Source: Beijerinckia sp. 28-YEA-48 (GTDB lineage: Bacteria > Pseudomonadota > Alphaproteobacteria > Rhizobiales > Beijerinckiaceae). Taken from it: DNA of 64,000 nt. The DNA is taken from assembly GCF_900104955.1 (NCBI RefSeq), contig NZ_FNSI01000001.1:4932001-4996000 (forward strand), in the 5' to 3' direction. A program made the position numbers and the translations under genes. This document shows positions 50,293 to 59,979 of this stretch, in pieces; within the stretch, counting starts at the first letter, position 1, and every line of letters starts with the position of its first letter. The notes beneath the pieces were generated by a model that was given only the letters and a program-made list of their open reading frames with translations, did no database searches and was not told the origin of the DNA.

Positions 50293-50459
50293 AGCCGTTC
50301 ACTCAGCTCGATCACTCAATGGATTCTTGCCAGGGTGCTGGGATCGTCGCGTGAAGCCACTGCGCATACCATCATGACGGGCCTCTGGGAGAACCCGTCA
50401 TGGAAGAATTTTCGAACCTCACAGGCCACCTGGCCAGCCCTTTGGCGCTCTGCGTTGCG

Positions 50460-50666
50460 TTAAACGGGATTGGCGCCCGGCGTTCCGCACTTGGCGAATT
50501 TGCCCTTGGCGTCCTTGCAGCGTGTGGCTGAAGCGGGTGCCGGCGCCGGACATTTGATGAACTTGCCCTTCGGATCCCGGCATTGCTCTGCCGCATAGGA
50601 CATCGAGGGAATGGTGAACGTCGCCGCAGTGGCAATGGCAAATGTAAGCGCGAGGATATTCTTCAT
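50460..50666 (-). CDS. Small secreted protein with two Cys-flanked KGKF repeats
   Basis: A 68-aa protein. Signal peptide MKNILALTFAIATAATFTIP with cleavage after SYAA (about residue 26). The mature part has a duplicated unit: QCRDPKGKFIKC and RCKDAKGKFAKC, separated by a Pro/Ala linker. Each unit could close one disulfide loop. AGAGGAGG precedes the ATG at 50666. No family is recognised; similar tiny periplasmic proteins are common in the order. Confidence 0.7.
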   Translation of the reverse strand: MKNILALTFAIATAATFTIPSMSYAAEQCRDPKGKFIKCPAPAPASATRCKDAKGKFAKCGTPGANPV

Positions 50667-51243
50667 CGGCACCTCCTCTTCATGCGACCCAGTCCGAGTC
50701 GTCGGCGTGATGATATACCTGGGGGGCGCTGTTGCCACTGTGTGTTCAACGATCGGTTCCAAGCATCCTTGCGATCCGCCCCGGTGTGAGGGGGGGGGAC
50801 GCCAGAAGAAGGCTTTGGGTGCCCGGTTGGACGTCCAGCGGCCGGAGTGGTGGTTAGAGGGAGGCACGTTTCTATAATAATCGATAATATAGTAATTTAC
50901 TCTGAAATTCGAAATCTGAAGAAAGATTAACAATGCGGGTGCGATATTGGTGCGCGGTTGACAGTGTGCTGGAATTTGCCAATTCGCGTTAGAATCCGTC
51001 GTCGGTCCACTGTCTCACAGATTGGTTCTCTGTGGTGTGGCGGGTGTTTAGGTTGTGGGCCCTTTTGCATTCTCTTACGATCAGAATGGGACGTCTGCGA
51101 ATCTTGGGTTGCTGATTTTATGGGCGTTAATTCAATAACTTACGATTGTGCGGCTCCCTTTTGGGACACGCTTGACCCCGCATACCGTCTTTGCAATGCA
51201 TTCAAGTAGAGAATCAGTTATTCCTCTGCGCGCAGGGGGGGCG
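50667..51243. other. 577-bp spacer at the left edge of the R-M cassette
   Basis: No gene is supported. It contains a run of nine or more G (near 50789-50798) and a marked A/T-rich stretch (about 50868-50935) that contrasts with the GC-rich surroundings. The base composition shift begins here and continues through the R-M genes. The cassette promoter is probably in the right part. Confidence 0.4.
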
Positions 51244-52338
51244 ATGAGCTGGTTTCTACAAACGCCGGATAGTGCAAGTCCGAAACTTCTCAAAAATATA
51301 ATGGACCAATGCGGACCTGCCGAAAGAGGCGGCGCTGCTTTCGCGTTCGCGTCTGCTCAAGGCGTGAAGCTCCTCGGTGCTGAACCGATGTTCAGCAAAT
51401 TCCTCAAGGCCTCCGAATTCACCATCATCGTAGGCCTCGATGCGATCACAGATACGCGCGCGGTCGATGAGTTGCGGAAACTGAGCAAAAGCCATCCAAA
51501 TTTTAAGCCTAAGCTCTTTCTTCATTCCATGGGCGGCTCACTCTTCCATCCAAAGACGATGTGGCTGAAGACCTCGAAGGGTGGCGTCATCATCACAGGC
51601 TCCGGCAACCTCACATCTGGCGGCCTCAAGTCAAACTGGGAGGCGACTGCTGTGCAGACGCTTACACCTGCGGAGATTGCCGAGGCGGTGAAGAGCTGGG
51701 ACGCCTGGCTTAAGACGCACAAGAACCAAATCGTCGATCTCGACGACGGGAAAGCAATCGAAAAAGCCAAGGCGAATGAAGTCGTGCGATCGAGGATTAA
51801 GAAGGTGCTTAAGAAGCCTGGTGCCGAAGAGGAACCGGCTGACCAAGAAGTCGATGCGATCGCAGAGATCGTTGAAGACATCGAGGATGATTTCTCACTC
51901 AATCCGGTCTTAATTGCTGAAGCACCTGGCGGTGGGCGGTGGAAGCAAGTTGGATTCAGTTTAGAGGCGTACGAGCAGTTCTTCGGAGTGACTCTTGGAA
52001 AGAAAAAGCACGTCCGATTTTACCAGGTCAATTCAGACGGCAGCCTAGAGCCCGTCGAGAACAGCGAGTCTGTCGCTGTGAAAAGCAAGAATTACCGTTT
52101 TGAAATTAGGGCAGCGCAAGGGCTGCCGTATCCCAAAAAGGGTCATCCGATCGTCGTGTTTGAAAAGATCAGTGACTCCGATTTCAAATATATTCTCAGG
52201 ATGCCTGGAAATCCGGAGCACACGTTGATCCAGGATTTCTTGGATAAGAACTACAGCAAGTCGCGGGCGAAGCGAAGAATCCAGATCACTGCCGGCGATC
52301 TTGAGAAGGTCTGGCCTACTGCACCCTTCTTCCACTAA
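51244..52338 (+). CDS. Phospholipase-D-fold type II restriction endonuclease, BfiI/NgoFVII-like
   Basis: A 364-aa nuclease. The active-site cluster is FHPKTMWL with His102 and Lys104, GSGNLTSGG with Asn122, and NWEATAV with Glu133. The spacing K-18-N-11-E equals that of BfiI (His105, Lys107, Asn125, Glu136, as I recall), a metal-independent type IIS enzyme of the PLD superfamily. The remaining 220 residues are probably the DNA-recognition part. The ATG at 51244 follows a G-rich site; the longer frame to 51148 lacks support. It is tail-to-tail (4-bp overlap) with a DNA methylase. Codon use is less GC-rich than in flanking genes, indicating transfer. Confidence 0.75.
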   Translation: MSWFLQTPDSASPKLLKNIMDQCGPAERGGAAFAFASAQGVKLLGAEPMFSKFLKASEFTIIVGLDAITDTRAVDELRKLSKSHPNFKPKLFLHSMGGSLFHPKTMWLKTSKGGVIITGSGNLTSGGLKSNWEATAVQTLTPAEIAEAVKSWDAWLKTHKNQIVDLDDGKAIEKAKANEVVRSRIKKVLKKPGAEEEPADQEVDAIAEIVEDIEDDFSLNPVLIAEAPGGGRWKQVGFSLEAYEQFFGVTLGKKKHVRFYQVNSDGSLEPVENSESVAVKSKNYRFEIRAAQGLPYPKKGHPIVVFEKISDSDFKYILRMPGNPEHTLIQDFLDKNYSKSRAKRRIQITAGDLEKVWPTAPFFH

Positions 52339-53693
52339 CGACAGAGAAAGAGCATTTCAGCTTCGGTGGATGCGTCAATGTGAAGACGGGTAGCATTCAG
52401 CTTCATGTGGCTGAACTTTCCCGTTGAAATCGTTTCAACACTTTCAAAGTATCGGCTGGCGAGCGTCATAATTTGATCCACGGTCATTACGCGCGGATGT
52501 GCGTCGCTGTCGGATGCATACGGCGAATAGGAAAGCACGAGCGGTGCTTTCAATGCTTGCACGCCAGCACAGAGCTTTTCAAATGCAACAGGTGCCTTGG
52601 ACTTAATGCAGAACGGTGATTGATGTCGATCAGCCCTATACATCCCTCGGCTGAATGTTTCCGTGAGCGCACGGATGCGCGTCGTCGAGACGCCGGGGTT
52701 GTCCCATAGGCACATTGTTTCCAGCACATGATAGAAGCGGCTGTAATGGTCGCGCGTGTAAGGGGGGTCCGCATATACCACGCCTACCTCGCCTGTGATC
52801 TGCGCAAGTGCATCAGCGTAGTCCCTGCGAATGACCTGATGTTTTCGCGTGGCTTTTGGCAGCGAGCGATACCGGTTGAGCCATAGCCCGAAGAGCTCGA
52901 ACACATCAATGGAACGGTCGCGGACGATCTTTGCGATCAAATTCCGCTTTGGCTTCCCTTCCGAATTTCGCGGCTTGATTGGTTGGGCAAAGTGCTTGCC
53001 CACCGTGTTCACAATTTCGCTCGCGGTACTGATGATGGCTGCCAGCAAAAGATCCCGCTCCGCTCCTTTCGCTACGTGAGCAATGGTCAAGAGTGCGTCG
53101 AGGTGGGTCGCTTGCCGGTATGAAAAGAACAAGCCGCCATAGAAGCGGAGGACTAGTGTCGTCCGGCTTTCCACGTCAATGAGTTTGCGGGTCCACTTTT
53201 GGGCATGCTCGAAATCAGGCCGGACGGCTGGTCGGCCTGATGCTACAAATGCCACCATCGAAGCGTGCTCAATTAGCTCGCATATCGGTTCATGGTCGCC
53301 GCGTTGCGCCTGGGCAAGACAAGCTTCCTCGTACTCAATGAGGGGAGCCGCAGCCGCTTGGGTTCCGATGGCTTGTTCGTCTACTCTGGCGATGAATTCT
53401 CGAGCGGTTTTCTCTGCGATCGTGGCGGGTAGCAGGATCGCCGAACAGAGGACGCGGGAATATTCTTGAATATCGATCGAGATCACGTCGCGGGTCGCCG
53501 CCGCAGCGGCTGACACCGTGCCGGAACCGGAGAAGAGGTCTACCAGGCGGCCTCGGTTTGGGTCCACTTGATCAAAAGCTAGACGCAAAGGCTCGACCAG
53601 CCGGAGCTTGCTGCCCAAATAGTGGATTGGGCGCCAAACTTCTGCAATAGGTTCGTTATCGTCGATCGGGAGCCGAAGCTGAGGCTTGTTCAT
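52335..53693 (-). CDS. DNA adenine methyltransferase, alpha class (D12-like)
   Basis: A 452-aa methyltransferase. Near the N-terminus IHYLGSKLRLVEPL matches the D12-class opening motif. The SAM site is VDLFSGSGTVSAAA (residues 51-64), and the catalytic motif is YADPPYTRDHYSRF with DPPY at 309-312. The order FxGxG then DPPY, with a long middle insertion for recognition, is alpha-class. It should protect one strand or site of the host against the adjacent nuclease. The ATG at 53693 is preferred over a TTG at 53732. Its stop overlaps the nuclease stop by 4 bp. Confidence 0.88.
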   Translation of the reverse strand: MNKPQLRLPIDDNEPIAEVWRPIHYLGSKLRLVEPLRLAFDQVDPNRGRLVDLFSGSGTVSAAAAATRDVISIDIQEYSRVLCSAILLPATIAEKTAREFIARVDEQAIGTQAAAAPLIEYEEACLAQAQRGDHEPICELIEHASMVAFVASGRPAVRPDFEHAQKWTRKLIDVESRTTLVLRFYGGLFFSYRQATHLDALLTIAHVAKGAERDLLLAAIISTASEIVNTVGKHFAQPIKPRNSEGKPKRNLIAKIVRDRSIDVFELFGLWLNRYRSLPKATRKHQVIRRDYADALAQITGEVGVVYADPPYTRDHYSRFYHVLETMCLWDNPGVSTTRIRALTETFSRGMYRADRHQSPFCIKSKAPVAFEKLCAGVQALKAPLVLSYSPYASDSDAHPRVMTVDQIMTLASRYFESVETISTGKFSHMKLNATRLHIDASTEAEMLFLCR

Positions 53694-53700
53694 TCGTCCA

Positions 53701-53715
53701 GAATCAATATGATTC
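53701..53715. promoter_or_regulatory. Inverted repeat between the two divergent methyltransferase genes
   Basis: GAATC (53701-53705) and GATTC (53711-53715) flank AATAT in the 80-bp spacer between the divergent methylase starts. It may be an operator or a methylation site that tunes expression. No controller (C) protein gene is present. Confidence 0.35.
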
Positions 53716-53773
53716 GCTACAGAGTGCGTCAACGCTGGCGACTCCGACGCAGCTTTTCGGGCAGGTTATCCCC

Positions 53774-55030
53774 ATGTTGACAGACTTGCAGGCCACTCTG
53801 GAAGCCAGAGCTGAAGGCGGAGCGCCTCTTTCGATCTCTTTCCAGTCGGTGAAAGGCCTTTCGTCGGGTGGCGACACCGATAATGCGATCATCCAGGGCG
53901 ACAATAGCGACGCTTTGGAACTCTTAAAGCTTCGATACGCGGGGAAAATTCGCTGTGCGTACATTGACCCCCCCTACAACAACCAGGAACGGTACAACCA
54001 CTACGCCGATAATCAAAGCCATGAGACTTGGCTTGCGGAGATCGTGGCGAGCGTAAAGAAAATCAAACCGCTACTCCGGCCGGATGGAAGCATCTGGATT
54101 TCAATCGACGACCGGCAAGTTCACTATCTCAAAGTCGCGCTCGATGAGGTATTCGGAAGAGAAAATTTCGTCACTACAATTGTGTGGGAACAGCGCACCA
54201 CGCGTGAAAATCGAAAAGTCTTCTCGAACAACCACGAATATTTGCTCGTCTACTCGACCGACATTCGCAAGTTCAAAGACAAGCGCGGGCTGCTCGATTG
54301 GGACGATGAGGTCCTCTCTCGTTTCCGGAACCCAGACAACGATCCTCGCGGACCATGGCAGTCGGTCTCCGCAAACGTCCAGGACGGGCATGCGACGAAA
54401 AGCCAGTTCTATGATGTGATCGCTCCAAATGGCCAGCGACATAAGCCGCCGAAAGGCCGATGCTGGGTCTATAACGAAGTACGTATGAAGCGGGAGATCG
54501 CTGACAATAACGTATGGTTTGGCAAGCATGGCGATTGCGTGCCACGTCTTAAACGTTTTCTCTGCGACGCGCGTCGTGGCTTTACTCCGCAGACTCTCTG
54601 GCCCGCGAACGAGGTCGGCACGAACGATCAAGCAAAAAAGCATTTGCTCGAACTCTTTCCGCGTCAGGCTGTCTTCGACACACCGAAACCTGAGGCGCTT
54701 ATTCGACGCATCCTTTGTATCGCGAGCGAGCCAGGGGATTTGATTCTCGATGCATATCTTGGCTCGGGCACTACCGCCGCCGTCGCGCACAAAATGAGCC
54801 GTCAGTACATCGGGATTGAAAAGGGCGATCACGCGGCGACACATTGCGTTGAGCGGATACGTAAAGTCATTGCGGGTGAAAAGGGGGGGATTTCTGCTGA
54901 GCTGGGATGGACGGGCGGAGGAGCCTTCCACTTTTATAAGCTAGATCAGCAGGAAGACCGCAGCAAGATTGCTGGCGCAGCTCGTGCTCGCAAAACTTTA
55001 GCGAAGCCTAGGGGCCGCAAAGCCAATTAA
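53774..55030 (+). CDS. DNA methyltransferase, beta class (N6-adenine/N4-cytosine, Mod-like)
   Basis: A 418-aa methyltransferase with the catalytic motif first: YIDPPYNN (DPPY at 65-68). The SAM-binding motif is near the C-terminus: LILDAYLGSGTTAAVA (323-338), followed by YIGIEKGD. This order defines the beta class. It begins like type III Mod proteins (NAIIQGDNSDALELL), but is shorter and has no Res partner. The cassette therefore has two methylases of different class plus a PLD nuclease, which fits a type IIS enzyme with an asymmetric site where each strand needs its own methylase. Confidence 0.88.
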   Translation: MLTDLQATLEARAEGGAPLSISFQSVKGLSSGGDTDNAIIQGDNSDALELLKLRYAGKIRCAYIDPPYNNQERYNHYADNQSHETWLAEIVASVKKIKPLLRPDGSIWISIDDRQVHYLKVALDEVFGRENFVTTIVWEQRTTRENRKVFSNNHEYLLVYSTDIRKFKDKRGLLDWDDEVLSRFRNPDNDPRGPWQSVSANVQDGHATKSQFYDVIAPNGQRHKPPKGRCWVYNEVRMKREIADNNVWFGKHGDCVPRLKRFLCDARRGFTPQTLWPANEVGTNDQAKKHLLELFPRQAVFDTPKPEALIRRILCIASEPGDLILDAYLGSGTTAAVAHKMSRQYIGIEKGDHAATHCVERIRKVIAGEKGGISAELGWTGGGAFHFYKLDQQEDRSKIAGAARARKTLAKPRGRKAN

Positions 55031-55112
55031 TTTCACCAGATCACGCTCGAAGGTCGACCACTGCCCGTCTTTTTCCGGCCGACTTAGCAATTTTCGAACC
55101 GAAATTTTCTGT

Positions 55113-55244
55113 CTAACAGGCTACATCCGACCCGGCGACCAAGCGTTGCATCAAGGCGCCATCCATTTGCTGGTGAAGCTCGTCTATCTGATTTACCAGC
55201 CCATTATAGGTTTTCCAGCGCATCCATTTCGGCTTAATCGGCAT
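55113..55244 (-). pseudogene. Possible remnant of a small gene
   Basis: A 43-codon stretch beginning MPIKPKWMRWKTYNGLVNQI and ending near LMQRLVAG reads like a real protein C-terminus, with Lys/Trp/Arg-rich start and amphipathic helix. I associate this KPKxMRWxT(Y/F) pattern with short conserved proteins near mobile elements in this order, but cannot name it. There is no ribosome site, and the frame extends upstream (to 55382) through unlikely sequence. It is probably a truncated gene. Confidence 0.3.
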
Positions 55245-55371
55245 GTCGGGATCGTCGCTTTGCAGTTTTGGAACAGGATGCGATTTCGCTGCGAGCAAAT
55301 TTGATCGATGCCGGCCGCTGTCCGCTGGGAGCGGGGCCAAACGCCAACTGATCCGCACCAGGAAAGTCTGA

Positions 55372-55392
55372 TGGTGCCGCAAGAGGGTTTCG
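55372..55392 (+). repeat. Copy of tRNA-Thr 3' end (candidate att site)
   Basis: This 21-bp sequence matches the last 21 nt of the tRNA-Thr gene (59904-59924) with one mismatch, in the same orientation. A further AGGAAAG match lies just upstream of both copies. Such duplications arise when an element integrates into the 3' end of a tRNA gene. Confidence 0.65.
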
Positions 55393-55737
55393 GCTGGGCG
55401 GTTCTTTGGTATTGATTTTATTAGGTTTTATCGTCGCGGCCAAAGCCGTAGTGTACCCCAGTGTCGTGTATCAACTACAAGCTTACGCACGACTTCCGGT
55501 CTGCCTATCGAAATAGCCTCGAACTCCTGATCGGACTCCTGCGCCCCGATGGCGAAAGCCGTCGGAAAATAGGGGGCGCTTCGTGTCAGAGGCGTGTCCT
55601 GCGCTGTAGAAGCGCGCCTCGTGGCTGTAGCTTCCAGGCTTCCATCCGACTAGTAAGGCATTCTAGGAACCTTCCCAGAAACCTTCCGATGGCTGCCCTT
55701 CGACGCCGGACGATAATGCGAACAGGCGGAACCAGCC

Positions 55738-57621
55738 GTGCCTTTCATGACGACAAATCCGGCGCTTGCCCGTTCCCTGGCAGAGCGCGACTACAATAAT
55801 CCGACGCCGGTGCAGCTTGCCGTGCTGGCGCCGGAGGCAGCAGCGCGCGACCTTTTGGTGTCCGCGCAGACCGGTTCCGGCAAGACCGTCGCCTATGGCC
55901 TGGCCATGGCCGAGACGCTGCTGGGCACCGAAGAGCGATTTGCCCCCGCAGCCGCGCCGCAAGCGCTGGTGGTGGCCCCCACCCGAGAATTGGCGCTGCA
56001 GGTGCAGCGGGAATTCGCCTGGCTTTATGCGGCGACGGGTGCCCGCATCGTGTCCTGCGTCGGCGGCATGGATCCGCGTCAGGAGCAACGGCTGTTGAAC
56101 CAGGGCGCGCATATTGTCGTCGGCACGCCCGGGCGCTTGCGTGATCATCTGGAGCGTGGCCGCCTCGACATCTCGGCATTGCGTGTCGTCGTCCTCGACG
56201 AGGCCGACGAGATGCTGAACCTTGGTTTCCGCGAGGATCTCGAATTCATTCTCGACGCCACGCCCCCCGAGCGGCGCAGCCTGCTGTTCTCGGCCACCAT
56301 GCCGCGCGGCATCGTCACGTTGGCCCGGCGCTATCAGCGCGATGCGTTGCGCATCGAAGTGGCGGGTGGTGGAGGCGGTCACGCCGACATCGAGTACCGC
56401 GCGATCCGCGTCGTTCCGACCGAGATCGACCACGTGGTTGTCAACGTGCTGCGCCACTATGATACGCCCGGCGCGCTCGTGTTCTGCAACACGCGCGAAG
56501 CGGTGGGGCGCCTCCATGCCATGCTTCAGGAGCGGCAATTTTCCGTCGTAGCCCTATCAGGCGAATTGAGCCAGAAGGACCGCAACCACGCCCTGCAAGC
56601 CCTGCGCGACGGGCGCGCCAAGGTCTGTGTCGCCACCGACGTCGCGGCGCGCGGCATCGATCTGCCGAACCTCGGCCTTGTCATCCACGCCGACCTGCCA
56701 AACGATGTCGAAAGCCTGCAGCACCGCAGCGGTCGCACCGGGCGGGCGGGCCGCAAGGGCGTGAGCGTGCTTCTGGTGCCGCCGTTCCGTCGTCGGCGGA
56801 CTGACGACATGCTGCGGGGACTGGGCATCAAGCCCATCTGGTCCGGCCCGCCGACCCCCGAAGACATTCGCAAGCTCGATCACGAACGTATGTTGCGCGA
56901 CGCTTTGATTACCGATGAGCCGAACGAAGAAGACGCGAGCGCCGCCTTGGCGTTGCTCGCCGTGCACGCGCCCGAGCATCTGGCAGCCGCGCTAGTGCGC
57001 CTCTATCGGACCGGCTTGCCGGCCCCCGAGGAGGTCTCCGATCCGGGTGAGGAGCGCGCGCCGCGCGCCGGGCGCGATCTTGCGGCGGCCGGCAGAGACG
57101 GCGGGTTTGACGTCGGGGGCACTTGGTTCCGCCTCAACGTCGGCCGCCGCAACAATGCCGATCCGAAATGGCTGCTGCCGATGATCTGCCGACGCGGAAA
57201 CCTGACGCGAAAGGATATCGGCGTTATCCGCATCCTCGACGAGGAGACGCACTTTGAGGTCTCGCCGGTCGCGGTCGCTCGTTTCAGCAAGGCGGTGCGC
57301 AAGATAGATACCGGCGACCTGATCATCGAGCCGTTGCCCGGCGGCCGGCCGGCCGGCGATGCGGAACGTCCCCGCGGTAAGCCGCATGGGGGAAAGCCAC
57401 CCTACGAGAAACCCTTCCCAGGCAAGAAATTCCACAAAGAGAAATTCCACAAAGAGCCCGGGCAGGGAAAGCCGGCCTACGGCAAGGTGAAGGACGGCAA
57501 GCCCGCATTCGAGAAGCCGCGCGAGGGCAAGCCGTTCGGTCAGGGCAAAGGCGAACATCGGCCGAAGGGCGCGCGTCCGGACGCGCCTGGGAGCAAAAAA
57601 GGAAAGCCGCGACACCCTTGA
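55738..57621 (+). CDS. DEAD-box RNA helicase, DeaD/CsdA type with DbpA-like RNA-binding domain
   Basis: A 627-aa helicase. Motifs in order: Q-like PTPVQLAVL, I AQTGSGKT, Ia PTRELA, Ib GTPGRL, II DEAD (VLDEADEML), III SAT, IV LVFCNTREA, V ATDVAARGID, VI HRSGRTGRAGR. Residues about 450-525 form a DbpA-type RNA-binding domain (FRLNVGRRNNADPKWLLPMI). The C-terminal 90 residues are a disordered Lys/Gly/Pro tail with KP repeats. It remodels ribosomal or mRNA structure, often in the cold. GTG at 55738 or ATG at 55747 may be the start. It lies inside the tRNA-bounded segment. Confidence 0.9.
   Translation: MPFMTTNPALARSLAERDYNNPTPVQLAVLAPEAAARDLLVSAQTGSGKTVAYGLAMAETLLGTEERFAPAAAPQALVVAPTRELALQVQREFAWLYAATGARIVSCVGGMDPRQEQRLLNQGAHIVVGTPGRLRDHLERGRLDISALRVVVLDEADEMLNLGFREDLEFILDATPPERRSLLFSATMPRGIVTLARRYQRDALRIEVAGGGGGHADIEYRAIRVVPTEIDHVVVNVLRHYDTPGALVFCNTREAVGRLHAMLQERQFSVVALSGELSQKDRNHALQALRDGRAKVCVATDVAARGIDLPNLGLVIHADLPNDVESLQHRSGRTGRAGRKGVSVLLVPPFRRRRTDDMLRGLGIKPIWSGPPTPEDIRKLDHERMLRDALITDEPNEEDASAALALLAVHAPEHLAAALVRLYRTGLPAPEEVSDPGEERAPRAGRDLAAAGRDGGFDVGGTWFRLNVGRRNNADPKWLLPMICRRGNLTRKDIGVIRILDEETHFEVSPVAVARFSKAVRKIDTGDLIIEPLPGGRPAGDAERPRGKPHGGKPPYEKPFPGKKFHKEKFHKEPGQGKPAYGKVKDGKPAFEKPREGKPFGQGKGEHRPKGARPDAPGSKKGKPRHP
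57427..57456 (+). repeat. Two tandem 15-bp repeats inside the helicase tail
   Basis: AAATTCCACAAAGAG occurs at 57427-57441 and exactly again at 57442-57456, encoding KFHKE twice. The identity at DNA level indicates a recent slippage duplication in the low-complexity tail. Confidence 0.8.
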
Positions 57622-57630
57622 GGGTGTCGC
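57609..57630 (+). terminator. Hairpin overlapping the helicase stop codon
   Basis: GCGACACCC (57609-57617) pairs perfectly with GGGTGTCGC (57622-57630) around TTGA, which contains part of the stop codon. No T tract follows. Confidence 0.5.
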
Positions 57631-57746
57631 GATGACGTCACCGCGCATGCACGGATGTTCAAGGCAGGCCCAGGGCCGGTGGCAGGGGCATGTCCCAATG
57701 GCCTAGCGGCCGACTTTCCGCCTCCGGTACTCCAGCGGACAGCTGG

Positions 57747-58577
57747 TTAGCCGGCGCTCTGCGACATCCGCCATATCAGGCGGTCGATCAGTCGATCAGG
57801 AAGCAACCAGGTAAGAAATACAATCAACTTAGCGCCGCCGCCGGTTGCGTAGCGCGGGCGCGGATTGCGCGCCGCCACGGCCTTGCCGATCGTCCGCGCG
57901 ACGACATCGGGCGGAGAGGCCAGGCGCGAAGCATCGGCGCCTCCCAGCATCGCGGCATGGCGTCGCGCATAGGGGCCGTAGGCAGTGGCTCCCGATCGCG
58001 CAATCAAGCTGTCGCGCGCGATTGCGTTCCATTCGGTGCGGATGGCGCCGGGTTCGATCACGATCACGCGAATGCCAAATGGTTTGAGCTCAAGCCGCAT
58101 GCAATCGGAAAGCCCCTCCACCGCGAACTTGGTGGCGTGATACCAACTCCCGAACGGCTCGCCGAGTTTGCCCCCAACCGAAGTGACATTGACGATCGTT
58201 CCAGACTTTTGCGCCCGCATGAGCGGAATGGCGAGTTGGCTGAGCCGCGCCAAGCCCATCAAGTTTACTTCGACCTGGCGGCGGCCCTCGTCTATCGGCA
58301 CATCCTCAAGCGCGCCATAGCTGCCATAGCCGGCATTGTTGACGAGCACGTCGAGCCGCCCGCCGGCAGCGCGTTCGACTTCCGCGACCGCCGCAACGAT
58401 CGAGGCGTCGTCAGTGAGATCGAGCGGAACAAGCGTGACCCCCAAGGCTTCAAGCGGCTTCATTCGGTCGAGTCGCCGGGCGGCGGCGAATACCTTGTAT
58501 CCGTCGCTGACGAGTTGACGGGTCGTCGCTTCGCCGATCCCCGACGATGCGCCGGTCACAAGAGCTGTTTTCACCAC
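57747..58577 (-). CDS. Short-chain dehydrogenase/reductase (SDR)
   Basis: A 276-aa NAD(P)-dependent oxidoreductase of the classical SDR type. Cofactor site TGASSGIGEAT, an Arg-rich strand end (AARRLDRM) that favours NADP, NNAG in LVNNAGYGSYG, catalytic Ser in TSVGGKLG, and YHATK (Tyr/Lys). The C-terminal part (GGGAKLIVFLTWLLP) resembles YqjQ/retinol-dehydrogenase-like SDRs. The GTG at 58577 lies 26 nt downstream of the predicted transcription start; GGAG precedes it. It is divergent from a MerR regulator, with a MerR-type promoter between them. Confidence 0.88.
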   Translation of the reverse strand: MVKTALVTGASSGIGEATTRQLVSDGYKVFAAARRLDRMKPLEALGVTLVPLDLTDDASIVAAVAEVERAAGGRLDVLVNNAGYGSYGALEDVPIDEGRRQVEVNLMGLARLSQLAIPLMRAQKSGTIVNVTSVGGKLGEPFGSWYHATKFAVEGLSDCMRLELKPFGIRVIVIEPGAIRTEWNAIARDSLIARSGATAYGPYARRHAAMLGGADASRLASPPDVVARTIGKAVAARNPRPRYATGGGAKLIVFLTWLLPDRLIDRLIWRMSQSAG

Positions 58578-58609
58578 GATTTTTCGACTCCAATTCAATA
58601 GAGCCAAGC

Positions 58610-58640
58610 CCTATAAGGGTGGAGTATAGTCCATGGTCAA
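58610..58640 (-). promoter_or_regulatory. MerR-type promoter (19-bp spacer) for the SDR gene
   Basis: On the minus strand TTGACC (58640-58635) and TATAGG (58615-58610) are separated by exactly 19 bp. The over-long spacer contains the dyad CTATA-N9-TATAG (58611-58615 and 58625-58629 on the plus strand). This is the classical layout that a MerR-family activator underwinds. It lies in the spacer to the divergent merR-like gene. Confidence 0.7.
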
Positions 58641-58654
58641 GAGATAATCGCATT

Positions 58655-59101
58655 ATGCTGATTTCGGAATTTGCGCGCGCGGCGGGCATGAGTGTCGATA
58701 CCGTCCGCTTTTATGTGCGTCAGGGGCTGCTTCGCCCGCAGACGGGTATGAAGGGCGGCGCCAATCCCTATCAAATATTCGACGCTGAGCAGGTCAATGG
58801 CGCGCGCGTCATTCGCTTGATGCAGAGCCTCGGCTTCTCGTTGAAAGAAATCGGCTGCATTGTCGAGGAATATCATCGCGGCGACATAACGCCCGAGCGC
58901 GCGCGCGCGATCATGGCCAGCCAGCTCGGCAAACTGGAGGCCAAGCAAGACGGGCTCGACGCGATGATCACTTATATGCGCGCAAAGATTGCCTGGATGG
59001 ACGGGGGGAACCAGGGTCCGGAGCCTAAACTGGCCGGGTTCGGCGCATGTGGCGCCGATGGGATACAGCCCGCGACCAAGCGCCACCCGCGAACAGTCTA
59101 G
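58655..59101 (+). CDS. MerR-family transcriptional regulator
   Basis: A 148-aa regulator. The N-terminal winged helix is ISEFARAAGMSVDTVRFYVRQGLL, followed by IRLMQSLGFSLKEIGCIV and a long dimerisation helix (SQLGKLEAKQDGLDAMITYM). The C-terminus has one Cys (GACG) and no clear metal-binding pair, so it more likely senses an organic compound or redox signal. It is divergent from the SDR gene and probably activates it through the 19-bp-spacer promoter. Confidence 0.9.
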   Translation: MLISEFARAAGMSVDTVRFYVRQGLLRPQTGMKGGANPYQIFDAEQVNGARVIRLMQSLGFSLKEIGCIVEEYHRGDITPERARAIMASQLGKLEAKQDGLDAMITYMRAKIAWMDGGNQGPEPKLAGFGACGADGIQPATKRHPRTV

Positions 59102-59187
59102 CCAGCCACGCCACCTTGCCCCTTCGCTTTAATCCACGATGATACGAAGGCCGGTCATGATTGACGAACAAATTTATCGAGGCTGAC

Positions 59188-59799
59188 GTGACTGAAGCAG
59201 TCCTTGGTTCATTCATATTGACGTGTTTGCTTATAGAGCTAACCCCAGGGCCGAATATGACCTACTTGGCCCTGATTTCGGCCGCTTATGGGCGTCGAGC
59301 CGGGTTCGCAATGGTAGCGGGAATCGCCCTGGGCTTAAGTCTTATTGGGGCTGTCTCAGCTTTCGGTGTTGCCGAGATTATCCAATCCTCCGACTTCTTT
59401 TATAATCTTTTGCGCTGGGCTGGGGTGCTCTATCTGCTCTACCTTGCTTGGAATGGATGGGTCACCGCAAGCAATGGCGCAGAAGCCGATGATGATACCG
59501 AGGGGCGATATTTCCTCCGAGGCATCATCACAAACATTCTGAATCCAAAGGCCGGCATTTTCTTCATAGCGGTCCTGCCAACATTCATTGACCGCTCACA
59601 CCCACCCGTACCGCAAGCAATGATACTAACCGCTCTCTATGTTGCGGTTGCAACATTCGTTCATGCCGGAATTGTGGGCTTAGCAGGTAGCTTCCAAGTG
59701 CTCATCAACGTACCAAGTCGAGAGCGATTGATGCGGCGTACCTTGTCCGCCATTCTGGCCGCCATCGCACTATGGTTCGCATGGTCGAGCGCGAGGTAG
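59188..59799 (+). CDS. LysE/RhtB-family amino-acid exporter
   Basis: A 203-aa membrane protein with about six hydrophobic segments. The N-terminal LLIELTPGPNMTYLALISAAYG is the LysE/RhtB signature, and ITNILNPKAGIFFIAVLPTFI the second conserved element (NPK). It exports amino acids or related metabolites. The GTG at 59188 with GAGG five nt upstream gives the usual length; the TTG at 59161 is an alternative. Codon use is less GC-rich than that of the neighbouring helicase and hemY genes, in line with recent acquisition. Confidence 0.88.
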   Translation: MTEAVLGSFILTCLLIELTPGPNMTYLALISAAYGRRAGFAMVAGIALGLSLIGAVSAFGVAEIIQSSDFFYNLLRWAGVLYLLYLAWNGWVTASNGAEADDDTEGRYFLRGIITNILNPKAGIFFIAVLPTFIDRSHPPVPQAMILTALYVAVATFVHAGIVGLAGSFQVLINVPSRERLMRRTLSAILAAIALWFAWSSAR

Positions 59800-59903
59800 A
59801 ACAGCACACAATCATCGGCCACGAGAAAGTCCGCGCCGCGAGATGAGCGGCAGGAACTCAGAGAAGCCACGTCTGGCTGGTCGCTAACTGTCTAGGAAAG
59901 CCG

Positions 59904-59979
59904 TGGTGCCGCAAGAGGGATTCGAACCCCCGACCCCATCATTACGAATGATGTGCTCTACCAACTGAGCTATTGCGGC
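59904..59979 (-). tRNA. tRNA-Thr (anticodon CGT)
   Basis: A full cloverleaf reads on the minus strand. Acceptor GCCGCAA pairs with TTGCGGC, D-arm GCTC...GAGC, anticodon stem CATCA/TGATG with loop TTCGTAA (anticodon CGT, codon ACG), and T-arm with TTCGAAT. CCA is encoded. Length is 76 nt with CCA. Its 3' end is duplicated at 55372-55392, as expected of a tRNA used as an integration site. Confidence 0.97.

Follow-up and report, generated by a model that had tools for sequence, protein, structure and literature searches.

A duplicated tRNA-Thr(CGT) 3′ end in Beijerinckia sp. 28-YEA-48 as a probable decayed attachment-site remnant in a family-wide integration hotspot

The window analyzed here, a stretch of 64,000 nucleotides from Beijerinckia sp. 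28-YEA-48, contains a tRNA-Thr(CGT) gene next to hemY, together with a second, partial copy of the 3′ end of that tRNA. Between the two copies lie genes coding for a DEAD-box helicase, a short-chain dehydrogenase (SDR), a MerR-family regulator and a LysE-type exporter, but no integrase, as the original prediction had described. The helicase is flanked by two window-specific blocks: the left one features a three-gene restriction-modification (R-M) system and gene debris, and the right one holds the SDR, MerR and LysE genes (Table 1). An 89-aa open reading frame beside the second copy (55113-55382) was considered as a gene and rejected, its only similarity being a short C-terminal one to hypothetical proteins; longer members of the small protein family to which the fragment KPKWMRWKTYNGL belongs are found in L078 and L079.

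Table 1. Features of the tRNA-Thr(CGT) locus, with coordinates in the window
Feature	Coordinates	Strand	Remarks
Window-specific block 1 (R-M cassette and debris)	50717..55599	.	GC about 0.51-0.55; backbone shared with the closest relative (G023) on both sides
PLD-type nuclease, probable restriction enzyme	51148..52338	+	Weak PLD matches (Pfam/PADLOC); plasmid gene order
D12-class adenine methyltransferase	52335..53732	-	
N4/N6 DNA methyltransferase (type III-like)	53774..55030	+	
C-terminal fragment of a hypothetical-protein family (KPKWMRWKTYNGL), gene debris	55113..55250	-	
Second tRNA 3′-end copy TGGTGCCGCAAGAGGGTTTCG, probable decayed att core	55372..55392		20/21, direct orientation
13-mer TATTGATTTTATT resembling element ends	55410..55422	+	Single occurrence in the genome
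DEAD-box helicase with DbpA-type domain	55738..57621	+	Common to G023; old neighbor of tRNA-Thr
Window-specific block 2 (SDR, MerR, LysE)	57614..59901	.	Between helicase and tRNA
Short-chain dehydrogenase (SDR)	57747..58607	-	
MerR-family regulator	58655..59101	+	Divergent from SDR; start 58655 chosen by inspection
LysE-type exporter	59161..59799	+	Low GC (0.523)
tRNA-side repeat copy, 3′ end to T-loop	59904..59924		+ strand reads TGGTGCCGCAAGAGGGATTCG
tRNA-Thr(CGT) gene, integration target	59904..59979	-	ARAGORN; 3′ CCA end at 59904-59906

The second copy is a real, non-random duplication of the tRNA end. From the CCA to the T-loop, TGGTGCCGCAAGAGGGTTTCG agrees with the tRNA at all but one of 21 positions, the two copies being direct repeats, which confirms the 21-nt repeat with one mismatch that had been predicted; past base 21 the identity falls to the chance level of 8/25. 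Across the whole 6.43-Mb genome the two copies are the only sites found at up to 2 mismatches and the next-best sites for the 21-mer have 3, a level of mismatch (3 or fewer) at which a shuffled window yields 0.01 matches. Exact copies of the 21-mer were looked for in viral contigs and none were found. The AGGAAAG match just outside the repeat, which had been offered as further evidence, fared less well as a genuine extension of it: 2.8% of random 35-mers from the window align equally well to the tRNA flank (p about 0.03). Chance similarity, or a copying event other than integration, could be argued from the mere 21 bases of the repeat and from the lack of any other recognizable element part. 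However, such an origin is hardly credible in view of the uniqueness of the pair at up to 2 mismatches in the genome and of a control search with the reversed pattern, which gave 0 matches in 199 genomes.

The same 199 genomes, drawn from the family Beijerinckiaceae, were covered by the search for the tRNA end itself, and they show that the tRNA-Thr(CGT) gene beside hemY is a genuine, recurrent integration hotspot in this family. Eight genomes (G087, G101, G125, G129, G174, G220, G227 and G251) carry two direct copies of the tRNA end on one contig, and a ninth duplication brackets a 6.05-kb island in G003 at the same hemY-linked tRNA. Each of them pairs the intact tRNA with a copy of its 3′ part alone, with spacings of 2.3-153 kb between the copies, and in six of the nine (G003, G125, G174, G220, G227 and G251) a tyrosine integrase adjoins the distal copy. 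Moreover, the 3′ flank of the tRNA varies among relatives, with different cargo at the same tRNA in this genome (G000), its closest relative (G023) and G003, in addition to the nine duplications. Thus, the proposal that a duplicated tRNA 3′ end marks site-specific integration is borne out by at least nine relatives that use tRNA-Thr(CGT) in this manner. Two further observations concern genes found at these loci: a type II-A retron-like reverse transcriptase and a nucleoside deoxyribosyltransferase-like gene lie directly outside the 6-kb integrase island of G003 (L036:18346-20299), and in the 33-kb element of G220 an HsdM-like type I methyltransferase, called by eye from the sequence alone, lies close to the tRNA end (L126:2661-4193).

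In eight of the nine relatives the repeat is 45-52 nt long and reaches the anticodon loop, the exception and the shortest of the nine being the decayed distal copy of G101 (33 nt, 3 mismatches). The 45-52-nt duplications agree with what PMC2647930 describes, for PFGI-1 of Pseudomonas fluorescens Pf-5, as class IA of Williams 2002, in which the att sites of tyrosine integrases comprise the T-loop plus the anticodon loop. The window copy, at 21 nt, falls short of the approximately 45-50-nt core reaching the anticodon loop that is characteristic of this class. It looks decayed because it is so much shorter than the repeats of the eight relatives, ends within the T-loop, carries a mismatch and lacks an integrase. 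One might instead regard it as the complete core of a different class of integrase that recombines in the T-loop, rather than as a truncated core of the anticodon-loop class: the match does end in the T-loop, and the sublocation of attB within tRNA genes varies with the integrase subfamily (Williams 2002, as cited in PMC2647930). We consider this improbable, given that no same-contig duplication among the nine from the sampled family ends there, not even the decayed one of 33 nt.

The gene order to the left of the tRNA was compared with that of the closest relative, Rhizobiales bacterium 62-17 (G023, locus L032), which is only about 80-87% identical. Its contig C9 shares with the window the backbone of 43.4-50.7 kb, and its contig C5 the helicase, tRNA-Thr and hemY; the ends of both contigs bear an autotransporter-like repeat sequence, based on which we infer that they adjoin, the assembly being broken in the left pocket. 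The helicase region (55600-57613) is 87% identical in DNA to that of G023, like its flanks, and has the same position and orientation, whereas the DNA on either side of it differs. To the left, the R-M cassette is replaced in G023 by genes for an autotransporter, a cytochrome c and a dehydrogenase-like protein (named from their translations); to the right, a 1019-aa phosphorylase/STAND gene takes the place of SDR/MerR/LysE. The latter gene (L032:12576-15635), situated between the helicase and tRNA-Thr, codes for a phosphorylase-superfamily/STAND-like protein that is probably a defence protein. The sequence becomes homologous to G023 again at 59902, by the CCA end of the tRNA, and as far as that end the DNA on the left side of the tRNA is specific to the lineage. 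A copy of the tRNA end was sought to the left of the helicase in G023 and none was found. The claim that the repeat bounds a single 4.5-kb island is, by the criterion that the original prediction had itself set, partly refuted, because G023 keeps its helicase beside tRNA-Thr without the repeat; in this comparison, the segment between the copies does not behave as a unit gained or lost with an empty site left behind. The accompanying suggestion of nested or decayed insertions was a good guess.

The divergence of the helicase points in the same direction. The protein identities to G023 are 88% for both the helicase and HemY; to G030 they are 62% and 68%, and to four other relatives 54-57% and 52-62%, respectively, such that the helicase tracks hemY in six relatives, a pattern that fits vertical inheritance. 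Its GC is 0.665. In more distant relatives the helicase resides in other neighborhoods and is not beside tRNA-Thr; therefore, it would have moved to the tRNA before the split between this genome and G023, and it is possible that an earlier island captured it. This displacement, along with the direct orientation and correct geometry of the copies, is what speaks for one element at tRNA-Thr that brought in the helicase, SDR/MerR and LysE and had its distal att at 55372. In the strongest version of this reading, the integration would be older than the divergence from G023, in which the distal copy was subsequently lost. Nevertheless, we deem such an element rather unlikely: G023 has the helicase here without a repeat, the helicase displays the divergence of a core gene and a high GC, eight of the other nine att duplications at this tRNA are far longer than the copy, and an integrase is missing.

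The absence of an integrase extends to the surroundings. None, nor any remnant of one, was detected among the genes or in the translated junction reading frames (50455-51260 and 55028-55745), whereas site-specific elements would be expected to bear one inside, near one end. An integrase just to the left of the R-M cassette, the side on which the original prediction had suggested looking, was likewise rejected, 43.4-50.7 kb being backbone common to G023. The R-M cassette had been placed just outside the event: its genes do lie to the left of the repeat, but the repeat is itself within the R-M block, about 200 nt from the boundary with the backbone at 55600, so that the cassette is not external to the event. 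This placement follows from the low GC that runs from 50718 through 55599, as against that of the helicase; intergenic GC alone is a weak argument here, the corresponding spacer of G023 having a GC of 0.54. Elsewhere in the order the R-M nuclease was not found, this genome being the only one of 397 searched to carry it.

Taken together, the copy at 55372 is most likely a decayed att remnant in the family-wide hotspot, and our best reading is a hotspot of two pockets with the att scar inside the pocket on the R-M side. We regard it as probable that the scar belongs to that side and that the interval is mosaic, built around an old helicase. Worded as a sequence of events, tyrosine-integrase elements recurrently use the tRNA-Thr(CGT) 3′ end as an attachment site in this family, each integration duplicating the 3′ end and leaving the tRNA intact. 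The copy at 55372 would be what persisted of one such att after loss of the integrase and of the anticodon-loop half of the core. It would have arrived with the R-M-side block, the foreign, low-GC segment in which it now sits. The helicase would already have been beside tRNA-Thr in the common ancestor with G023, with the SDR/MerR/LysE block gained later between it and the tRNA. Counting against a scar on the R-M side, a third copy of the core was sought where the R-M block begins on its left and none was found, and the position of the distal copy to the left of the helicase would also fit the geometry of an older, helicase-bearing island.

In favor of the preferred reading, the copy has next to it the truncated gene fragment at 55113-55250 and the 13-mer TATTGATTTTATT, which begins 17 nt to the right of the repeat. 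In G220 and G227 the element ends carry TATTGATTTTAC flush against the tRNA core, and variants of it occur in G003, G174 and G101. The resemblance of the 13-mer to these ends is suggestive, although the motif was noticed after the flanks had been seen. It raises the speculative and quite unlikely prospect that a tandem att array has collapsed at 55372-55425: one integration after another at tRNA-Thr(CGT) would have picked up a core DEAD-box helicase and moved it to a hotspot rich in defence genes, with only the 21-nt core and the element-end motif left behind. The defence-rich cargo invoked for it comprises the R-M system here, the phosphorylase-STAND gene in G023 and the type II-A retron beside the G003 island.

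The whole picture, including the preferred one of a scar in the R-M-side pocket, is known, ordinary biology. It illustrates how too much can be read into a tRNA repeat, as two copies here bracket a mosaic and not one island. It also identifies a recurrent integration site of this alphaproteobacterial family, the tRNA-Thr(CGT) adjoining hemY, with defence genes among its cargo and, thus, a concrete place to seek new defence systems in relatives.

Among known systems, the 6.05-kb island of G003 (L036) comes from the same genus and shares the same tRNA-Thr(CGT) beside hemY and a direct 3′-end repeat; it differs from the window in its approximately 50-nt repeat, its intact distal tyrosine integrase and the lack of a helicase. 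Class IA islands such as PFGI-1 (PMC2647930) differ from the window, where the copy is 21 nt long, ends in the T-loop with 1 mismatch and has no integrase, but have in common with it the tRNA 3′-end target, the direct duplication and a tRNA left intact. Finally, the R-M cassette has a counterpart in pR1041-ab1-11k (L134), an 11-kb mobilizable plasmid of Acinetobacter pittii: despite protein identities of 54% (methyltransferase) and 33% (PLD), and although the pittii copy is plasmid-borne, it displays the same three R-M genes in the same order and orientations.
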